Part shown: positions 29,675-31,962 of the stretch, piece after piece
Position numbering within the stretch: position 1 is the stretch's first letter
Layout: every line of letters starts with the position of its first letter
Source: Chitinophagaceae bacterium
GTDB lineage: Bacteria > Bacteroidota > Bacteroidia > Chitinophagales > Chitinophagaceae
Direction of reading: 5' to 3'
Assembly (NCBI GenBank): GCA_025363355.1
Contig: JANYEB010000116.1
Coordinates: 1-56,870, forward strand
Length of the DNA stretch: 56,870 nucleotides
The notes under the pieces: generated by a model
Told to the model about the DNA's origin: nothing
The model's input: the letters and a program-made list of their open reading frames with translations, nothing else
The model's database searches: none
Translations under genes and position numbers: made by a program

Positions 29675-30154
29675 ATGGACTTAAAGCAAATTCACGAATT
29701 GATTAAAATTGTCAATAAAAGTAACATCGGAGAAATCAGTATCGAAGACAAAGATGGTAAAGTAACCATCAAACAAAAAGAAGAACAAGTAGTTACAGTA
29801 GCTGCTGCACCACAACAAGTTTATAATGTTGCTCCACAAGCTTCAACTGCACCAGTTGCTGCTCAACCTGCTGCTCCAGCTGCACCAGTTGCTGCTGCAC
29901 CCGCTCCAAGTAATACAATAACAATAAAAAGCCCAATGATTGGTACTTTTTACAGAAAATCTTCTCCAGACAAACCTTCATTTGCAGAAGTTGGTACTGA
30001 AGTTGAGCCTGGCAAAGTAGTTTGTATTATTGAAGCAATGAAACTATTCAATGAAATTGAATCAGAAGTAAGTGGTAGAATCGTAAAAGTATTAGTAGAA
30101 GATGCTAGTCCTGTAGAATACGATCAACCTTTGTTCTTGGTAGAGCCAAATTAA
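29675..30154 (+). CDS. accB: Acetyl-CoA carboxylase biotin carboxyl carrier protein
   Basis: A 159-aa carrier that holds biotin for acetyl-CoA carboxylase, the first step of fatty-acid synthesis. The start is MDLKQIHELIKIVNKS at 29675; an upstream TTG in frame would add 50 unconserved residues. The Pro/Ala-rich flexible linker is at about residues 45-80. The biotinyl domain follows (IKSPMIGTFYRKSSP..., then EAMKLFNEI with the biotinylated lysine). Its partner accC follows on the same strand, but an unrelated small gene has come between them. Confidence 0.97.
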   Translation: MDLKQIHELIKIVNKSNIGEISIEDKDGKVTIKQKEEQVVTVAAAPQQVYNVAPQASTAPVAAQPAAPAAPVAAAPAPSNTITIKSPMIGTFYRKSSPDKPSFAEVGTEVEPGKVVCIIEAMKLFNEIESEVSGRIVKVLVEDASPVEYDQPLFLVEPN

Positions 30155-30165
30155 TGAGATAATTT

Positions 30166-30187
30166 GATGATGTGATAATTTGATAAT
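30166..30187. repeat. Left 22-bp terminal inverted repeat of the four-helix cassette
   Basis: It begins GATGATGTGATAATTTG and matches the reverse complement of 30587-30608 at 21 of 22 positions. It starts 11 nt after the accB stop and ends just before the ATG of the enclosed gene. Confidence 0.8.
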
Positions 30188-30188
30188 T

Positions 30189-30551
30189 ATGAAGAAAGAG
30201 AATATTGAGAATAATCCAATACTAAAACTTTCTTTTGAGTTCTCACTATTAATTGTCGAATATTGTGAATTATTAGAGTCGAAAAAAAAGTATGTAATTG
30301 CTCGCCAACTTTTAAAATCTGGAACTTCTATTGGTGCAAATGCAATGGAAGCACAAAATTCAGAGAGTAAAGCAGATTTTACTCATAAAATGAAAATAGC
30401 TGCAAAAGAGGCTGAAGAAACACAATATTGGCTTTTGATTTGTTCCTTATCAAGTAGTTATCCTAACTGCGATTTTTTGCTTCAGAAATTAGAAACAATT
30501 GGCAAAATTTTAAGTAGCATTATTTCATCATCAAAAAAAGTATCTATTTAA
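30189..30551 (+). CDS. Four-helix bundle protein (S23 / 23S rRNA intervening-sequence family)
   Basis: A 120-aa helical protein with the family pattern ENNPILKLSFEFSL, ARQLLKSGTSIGANAMEAQN and a lysine/glutamate-rich KAAKEAEETQYWLL helix. This family includes proteins encoded by intervening sequences inside 23S rRNA genes and is related to Avd of diversity-generating retroelements; its biochemical role is poorly known. ATG 30189 is preferred to TTG 30180, which lies in the inverted repeat. It sits between accB and accC, bracketed by 22-bp inverted repeats, which suggests it arrived as a small mobile unit. The reading direction lets accC still be transcribed. Confidence 0.9.
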   Translation: MKKENIENNPILKLSFEFSLLIVEYCELLESKKKYVIARQLLKSGTSIGANAMEAQNSESKADFTHKMKIAAKEAEETQYWLLICSLSSSYPNCDFLLQKLETIGKILSSIISSSKKVSI

Positions 30552-30586
30552 ATAAATGTGTGATAGCCATTTATAGGTATTATCAT

Positions 30587-30608
30587 ATTATCAAATTATA
30601 ACATCATC
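30587..30608. repeat. Right 22-bp terminal inverted repeat of the four-helix cassette
   Basis: Reverse complement of 30166-30187 with one mismatch. It ends 13 nt before the accC start. With the left copy it delimits a 443-bp unit. No clear target-site duplication is visible outside the repeats. Confidence 0.8.
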
Positions 30609-30621
30609 ACATTAAAAGACT

Positions 30622-31962
30622 ATGTTTAAAAAAATATTAATCGCTAACAGAGGTGAAATTGCACTGCGTGTAATTAGAACCTGTAGAGAAATGGGTATCA
30701 AAACTGTTGCAGTATATTCTACAGCAGATAAAGATAGCCTGCACGTTCGTTTTGCAGACGAAGCTGTTTGTATTGGTAAGCCTGCAAGTGTAGATAGTTA
30801 CCTAAATATTCCACACATAATGGCAGCTGCTGAAATCACAAATGCAGATGCTATTCATCCTGGTTATGGCTTCTTAGCAGAGAATGCAAAGTTCTCTCAA
30901 ATATGTGCCGATCACGGTATTAAATTTATTGGCCCTACACCTGCAATGATTAATGGAATGGGTGATAAAATTACTGCTAAAGAAACAATGATAAAGGCTG
31001 GAGTGCCTGTTGTTCCTGGTTCTGGCGGATTATTAGAAAGTGTTGATCAAGCAAAAGACTTAGCCAAAAATGTTGTTGGCTATCCAGTGATTCTTAAGGC
31101 AACTGCTGGTGGTGGTGGAAAAGGAATGCGTGTCGTGTGGGAAGAAAGCGAAATAGAAAAAGCATTTAATGCAGCTAAAGCTGAAGCTGCTGCATCGTTT
31201 AAAAATGATGGTATTTATATGGAGAAGTTTGTTGAAGAACCTCGACATATAGAAATACAAGTTGCAGGAGATCAGTATGGTCAGGTTTGTCATTTAAGTG
31301 AAAGAGATTGTAGTATTCAACGTCGTCATCAAAAGCTAGTAGAAGAATCTCCTTCGCCATTTATGACACCAGAATTACGTAAAGCAATGGGTGATGCAGC
31401 TATTAAAGCTGCAAGTGCTATTAACTACGAAAGCGTTGGTACTATTGAGTTTTTGGTGGATAAACATCGCAACTTTTACTTTATGGAAATGAATACTCGT
31501 ATTCAGGTAGAACATTGCGTTACAGAAGAAGTAATCAACTTTGATTTAATAAAAGAACAAATAAAAATTGCTGCTGGAGAGAAAATATCTGGTGCAAATT
31601 ATCAACCATCAATGTGTGCTATTGAGTGCAGAATTAATGCAGAAGATCCATACAATGATTTTAGACCAAGCCCGGGAAAAATTACTTATTTAAATACACC
31701 TGGTGGTCATGGTGTAAGAGTTGACAGTCACGTTTATGCTGGTTACGTTATTCCTCCTTATTACGACAGTATGATAGGAAAGCTAATAACTGTAGCTAGA
31801 ACAAGAGATGAGGCTTTAAACACGATGTATAGAGCTTTGAGCGAGTATGTAATTGAAGGTATCAAAACTACAATTCCATTTCATTTACAATTAATGCAGA
31901 ACGAGGATTTTAGAAAAGGTAATTTTACTACTAAGTTTCTTGAATCATTCACTATGAAATAA
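30622..31962 (+). CDS. accC: Acetyl-CoA carboxylase, biotin carboxylase subunit
   Basis: A 446-aa ATP-grasp enzyme that carboxylates biotin on AccB with bicarbonate and ATP. It starts [20 protein letters not shown]. It shows the pre-ATP-grasp domain ([29 protein letters not shown]), the glycine-rich ATP loop [33 protein letters not shown], the catalytic [14 protein letters not shown] and the C-terminal domain [11 protein letters not shown]...YDSMIGKLI. Standard length. It probably shares a transcript with accB through the inserted small gene. A perfect bidirectional hairpin follows. Confidence 0.98.

Follow-up and report, generated by a model that had tools for sequence, protein, structure and literature searches.

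In the Chitinophagaceae bacterium studied here, the genes for the biotin carboxyl carrier protein (accB) and biotin carboxylase (accC) are split by a small S23/IVP-like four-helix-bundle gene that lies between inverted arms of tandem octamers. This combination of an S23 gene with arms is a real and general feature and not a lone insertion. Sequence comparisons indicate that arms and gene belong together, that the gene runs with its operon, that it is patchy at the same spacers, and that hairpins with the local unit occur elsewhere. The best reading, and in our judgment a probable one, is an element of the type of the rRNA intervening sequences (IVSs) that resides in protein operons, whose gene and arms co-evolve and which has gene-less derivatives.

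The window, that is the whole stretch of 56,870 nucleotides that was analyzed, contains accB at positions 29675–30154 (PF00364 Biotin_lipoyl; start codon and frame taken from the sequence), the S23 gene at 30189–30551, and downstream accC at 30622–31962 (PF00289, PF02786, PF02785), all three on the forward strand and in one common direction. The S23 ORF of 120 amino acids, assigned by PF05635, TIGR02436, a structure model, and its dN/dS, begins with the ATG at 30189 and stops at 30549–30551. The left arm (30153–30187, forward strand) consists of the tandem octamers AATGAGAT AATTTGAT GATGTGAT AATTTGAT, which start at 30153, 30161, 30169, and 30177, and it reaches back into accB, overlapping its stop codon. 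The right arm (30579–30614, reverse strand) carries the left-arm octamers in inverse. With relaxed matching each arm comprises five octamers; both are degenerate runs of RAT[TG][TAC]GNN reading inward from either end, and in composition they are low-complexity, A+T-rich repeats. The 22-bp inverted repeats noticed in the initial annotation (30166–30187 and 30587–30608) were confirmed in coordinates and match, being identical at 21 of 22 positions and spanning 443 bp (30166–30608), and a repeat search extended them to 28 nt (30160–30187/30587–30614) with 93% complementarity. RNA folding predicts that the two arms form the stem that encloses the S23 ORF, and the fold of the unit has a z of -3.2.

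The encoded protein passes the curated cut-offs of both PF05635 (71.3 bits, cut-off 33.8) and TIGR02436 (84.5 bits, cut-off 24). Its AlphaFold2 model, based on an alignment of 41 relatives, has a pLDDT of 95.8, and the nearest solved structures found by Foldseek are the S23 proteins 2rld (TM 0.81) and 2gsc; Avd (4dwl) and complexes of diversity-generating retroelements (DGRs) stand lower among the hits, with a TM of about 0.6. The kinship with rRNA intervening sequences and Avd that had been suggested from the DNA letters is borne out. Between the genome from which the window derives (G000) and G002, one of the three congeners compared with it (G001, G002, and G003), the accB-accC S23 gene has a dN of 0.042 and a dS of 0.652, rates that indicate strong purifying selection. 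Differences between the arms of the two genomes amount to 1 of 40 positions and 3 of 39, respectively; gene and arms are thus both kept.

G000 contains 12 PF05635 matches, two of which are pieces of a single broken copy, and inverted repeats span the gene at nearly all of these loci. Each locus has a different 7- or 8-nt unit (e.g., TTAGTAG, GTCGACC, TGTTTGG, AAAAGTC). The initial annotation had expected the 22-bp ends to recur around other four-helix-bundle genes of the genome; they were searched for but not found there, the arms differing from locus to locus, and the accB-accC ends recur on gene-less hairpins. One shared terminal repeat as the end of all copies is not supported: each S23 locus has its own, subfamily-linked unit. 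The broken copy, located between atpD and atpC (L012, G000:C173), contains several stops, yet its long and regular TTAGTAG-type arms persist.

Pairing of the arms was evaluated at 108 of 109 unique loci from the four congeners (G000 included) and other genera of the family, full flanks being required. Own arms paired with a median score of 16, mismatched arms with one of 8. At 82 of the 108 loci the own-arm score lay above the 95th percentile of the 540 mismatched pairs, the other 26 having no clear arms in this test; in a direct-orientation control, 12/108 loci lay above the limit. Inverted-repeat scores of at least 13 were obtained for 47 of 66 S23 loci and for 1 of 261 shifted windows within the same loci.

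The clades in a tree of 93 S23 proteins match, by eye, arm words resembling GGTCNAC, GTGAATG, and GAGCTAT. For 110 locus pairs that were non-syntenic, came from different genera, and had a protein identity of at least 0.42, taken from 74 loci with an inverted-repeat score of at least 12 and an intact protein, mean arm similarity was 7.46 vs. 5.70 ± 0.20 in permuted data, none of 2000 permutations being as high, with the cuts on score and identity picked after the protein tree and a null correlation over all pairs had been seen. In that all-pairs comparison, protein identity and sharing of arm 6-mers were not correlated (-0.014), so the signal that connects unit and protein fades below about 45–50% identity. 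The subfamily of the accB-accC protein was represented by 80 named relatives, nearly all labeled Bacteroidota, 78 of which were kept for pairing and orientation. Its flanks have a period of eight, with an autocorrelation of 0.575 at lag 8 vs. 0.22–0.33 at other lags (52 loci), and tandem RAT[TG][TAC]GNN occurs in both flanks at 42 of the 80 loci vs. 0 of 104 other S23 loci. The two free letters of the octamer coincide at a rate of 0.49 when both arms come from the same locus and of 0.20 between loci (0/2000 permutations). Octamers accompany S23 genes of the accB-accC type across Bacteroidota, and the other subfamilies have mostly heptamers. Only 29 of 78 own arm pairs in the octamer set, and 6 of 14 in a set of plasmid loci (see below), lay above the cross-pair limit because loci share units. 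These comparisons indicate that the arm unit is linked to the S23 subfamily, in different genera and across the phylum, and not to the genomic place.

The S23 gene is co-oriented with both neighbors at 92 of 106 loci of the family and opposed to both at six, a count in which 40 fetched loci had flanks of only 700 nt and neighbors were mechanically called ORFs. In the phylum-wide set of the accB-accC type, it runs with both neighbors in 71 of 77 cases and against both in two. The places are often housekeeping operons; neighbors in G000 include atpD-atpC, iscS-iscU, nuoF-nuoG (nuoF assigned by eye, its 60-aa piece having no Pfam hit), pfk-pyk, and the spacer before dapF. At two further places, L010:2114–3022 (G000:C138) and L078:4222–5067 (G001:C48), the S23 ORF continues in frame through the right arm into a RidA-like gene, giving ORFs of 302 and 281 aa, respectively; G003 has RidA alone. 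The right arm seems to be read as a linker here, so that a fusion protein would arise.

Seven S23 spacers of G000 were compared with their counterparts, and each of the seven is S23-free in at least one sister species; several gene names in this comparison were assigned by inspection of the sequence. Between accB and accC the S23 gene is present in three of the four congeners: G002 has it with arms nearly identical to those of G000, G003 has it with another octamer, and G001 is S23-free, its repeat-like spacer of 86 nt folding with p = 0.08 only. S23-free sites, which the initial annotation had proposed to look for in sister strains, exist in sister species. In other genera, 28 of 28 genomes have accB and accC 21–158 nt apart without S23. 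Among the S23-free accB-accC spacers, 15/29 (G001 included) fold better than 97.5% of shuffles. The atpD-atpC and pepP-pssA spacers are S23-free in G002, the aldehyde dehydrogenase-ridA spacer in G003, the one preceding dapF in both G001 and G003, and the nuoF-nuoG spacer in G002 and G003, with a GxxExxY gene in G001; no hairpin was seen by eye in the S23-free sister versions of the latter two spacers (nuoF-nuoG in G002 and G003, before dapF in G001 and G003). The iscS-iscU spacer holds gene-less hairpins in G001 and G003. In G002 (L185, G002:C105) a MazE/MazF-like pair, named by eye, occupies the iscS-iscU position of the sisters' hairpin or S23 element. Across the family, PF05635 matches number 0 to 16 per genome, with 28 of 40 genomes having any; a gene fixed between accB and accC throughout the family and lacking other copies was thus not what we found.

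The octamer word of G000 gave 27 pattern hits in G000, 21 in G002, 2 in G003, and 1 in G001, and the octamer word of G003 gave 24 hits in G003, 9 in G002, 7 in G000, and 1 in G001, where mirrored control patterns yielded 0 or 1 per strand and a single place may yield several hits. Most of the G000 hits represent short hairpins located within operons, in the spacers rplC-rplD, rplV-rpsC, the one preceding rplL, atpF-atpH, nuoA-nuoB, and grpE-dnaJ (nuoB, rplC, and dnaJ were identified by eye). By these counts, the words of gene-less hairpins track the local S23 element in G000, G002, and G003. A census of 248 kb (the window plus 20 contigs of G000) found 19 hairpins, mostly perfect and terminator-like, one of which (L173:5792) shows 8-nt units by eye; gene-less repeat hairpins are therefore not dense, and their numbers rest on pattern searches. 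Other cargo was observed as well: nuclease-like GxxExxY genes lie in inverted arms with ACGCAAAG- or CTTATG-like units at L213 (G001:C56), L204, L205, L212, and L214. Of 12 GxxExxY (PF13366) matches in the same genus, one at a contig end was left out, and at 7 of the remaining 11 loci the arms pair better than 95% of cross pairs.

The IVS in the 23S rRNA of Coxiella burnetii contains an S23 ORF and a 28-bp stem, is excised by RNase III, and has an arm of GACAGAT heptamers whose number depends on the strain; that source describes it as unclear what rRNA intervening sequences and their S23 protein do and where they come from (PMC4990558). The S23 gene of Azospirillum lipoferum AZO_p2 (L375) also lies within a 23S rRNA gene (RF02541) and has heptamer arms. 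Like these IVSs, the accB-accC element is about 430–440 nt long, has tandem arm units, and carries, in the loop of a stem of some 28 bp formed by inverted repeats, an S23 ORF that reads in the same direction as the host transcript. It differs in lying between two intact protein genes and not inside a 23S rRNA gene, in having octamers where the IVSs of Coxiella and Azospirillum and most other S23 loci have heptamers, and in the purifying selection on its gene, whereas the Coxiella ORF is described as decaying (PMC4990558). Operon element and rRNA IVS thus have a common anatomy; by analogy the element would work like an rRNA IVS, but by location it is not one.

Plasmid-borne S23 relatives are found mainly in cyanobacteria (19 records). 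In the 14 records used, with one place each, most loci have heptamer arms by eye, and the contexts comprise cas6-cas4, cas10-cmr3, and conjugation operons. On the cyanobacterial plasmids L362, L369, and L372, S23 genes with heptamer or heptamer-like arms are held in CRISPR operons, twice in cas6-cas4 and once in cas10-cmr3. Phage records gave no S23 match. The name STRR is tied to heptamer repeats of cyanobacteria. The heptamer repeats of cyanobacteria and Beggiatoaceae resemble the arms in being degenerate tandem units between genes, of 7 nt in that system, but they are treated as direct repeats and not as arms of an element, and the main text of the study contains no hits for S23 or four-helix (PMC4679880). 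Our literature search, outside of which most subscription papers and preprints lay, found no paper in which S23 genes of protein operons are connected with heptamer arms.

The S23 protein has the same fold as Avd of DGRs, but RVT_1 (PF00078) matches occur in 0 of the 4 congener genomes (control genomes match in 3 of 14), so a reverse transcriptase was rejected as mover. REP/RAYT systems resemble the element in their short palindromes, which are dispersed between genes and accompanied by a single resident protein gene bearing these sequences too; there this gene encodes a Y1 transposase, here it is S23. Y1 transposases occur in all four congeners (10 matches), but the four loci inspected carry other repeats or none, and none has S23 arm units, which led us to discard this candidate mover too. 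Two Y1 matches, L377 (G001:C57) and L379 (G002:C138), are flanked by other inverted repeats of REP-like look with scores of 19 and 20.

If the element is of the IVS type, the unit would spread with its gene and arms together, and gene-less hairpins would remain where the gene was lost. The S23 element would be read together with accB-accC, its arms would pair in the transcript, and RNase III or the S23 protein would act on the stem, separating the accB from the accC message in much the way that an IVS, which RNase III cuts out of the transcript without rejoining, divides 23S rRNA into two halves. As a structural relative of Avd, S23 may read its own arm unit. What speaks against an element is that the accB-accC gene is under purifying selection and present in three of four congeners, so that it is not obviously moving now.

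Purifying selection on the gene, near-identity of the arms between G000 and G002, and the gene-less hairpins of the accB-accC unit in conserved operons would also suit a resident host RNA-binding regulator. Such a protein would bind the octamer hairpins of rplC-rplD, atpF-atpH, and nuoA-nuoB as well as those of its own operon, and it would control itself via the arms. The S23-free sites of sister species, the uneven number of matches per genome, and a G000 copy broken by stops make such a regulator an unlikely explanation, but this role may hold on top of the element. A different order of events, in which hairpins came first and the S23 gene later inserted into the loop, assumes that operon spacers carry repeat hairpins anyway, and is in keeping with the S23-free accB-accC spacers that often fold well, the gene-less iscS-iscU hairpins in G001 and G003, and the MazE/MazF-like and GxxExxY genes in such spacers. 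We regard it as quite improbable, as the arm unit tracks the S23 subfamily even among unrelated places and some S23-free sister spacers (nuoF-nuoG, before dapF) are free of hairpins by eye.

From the mobile inverted-repeat unit proposed in the initial annotation, the patchiness between sisters and the many other copies stand, but a common 22-bp terminal repeat for one mover does not. In its strict form, an ordinary transposon-like cassette with terminal inverted repeats that is moved in trans by a transposase, this idea would account for the inverted repeats, the dispersal, and the S23-free sites, and Y1 transposases are present in all four congeners. It is largely refuted by ends that differ at every S23 locus, whereas a transposon or MITE would have identical ends on all gene-bearing copies. 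Moreover, no flanking duplication was seen among the repeats found, the empty-site junctions of sister spacers being too diverged to define, the four inspected Y1 loci have other repeats or none, and the strict co-orientation with the operon is unexpected for a DNA transposon; we therefore consider such a cassette very improbable. The arms, being tandem 7–8-nt arrays for which no target-site duplication was seen among the repeats found, are unlike classical terminal inverted repeats. The low complexity of the A+T-rich arms could suggest that simple repeats came to lie around a small gene by mere chance, but own pairing and the matching of unit and protein are far beyond the controls and refute this explanation, the probability of which we deem negligible.

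Within the preferred reading of an IVS-type element, it is conceivable, although on balance doubtful, that S23 proteins recognize tandem words by their sequence. Since 2rld and 2gsc each hold five chains, the reader could be a five-subunit ring that binds one 7- or 8-nt unit of single-stranded RNA or DNA per subunit, with word and word length specific to the subfamily, and whose targets would be the transcript that encodes it and, in trans, the gene-less hairpins of ribosomal, ATP-synthase, and respiratory operons. TRAP, a ring protein that reads tandem units, provides a model for such a ring. The match between subfamily and word gives the S23 protein a directly testable partner. If tandem words are indeed read in this way, the IVSs of rRNA, the S23 elements of operons, the gene-less hairpins, and the heptamer repeats of cyanobacteria would be one class of small elements spreading through transcribed regions, which would offer a common cause for the hairpins in housekeeping operons of Bacteroidota and the heptamer repeats elsewhere.
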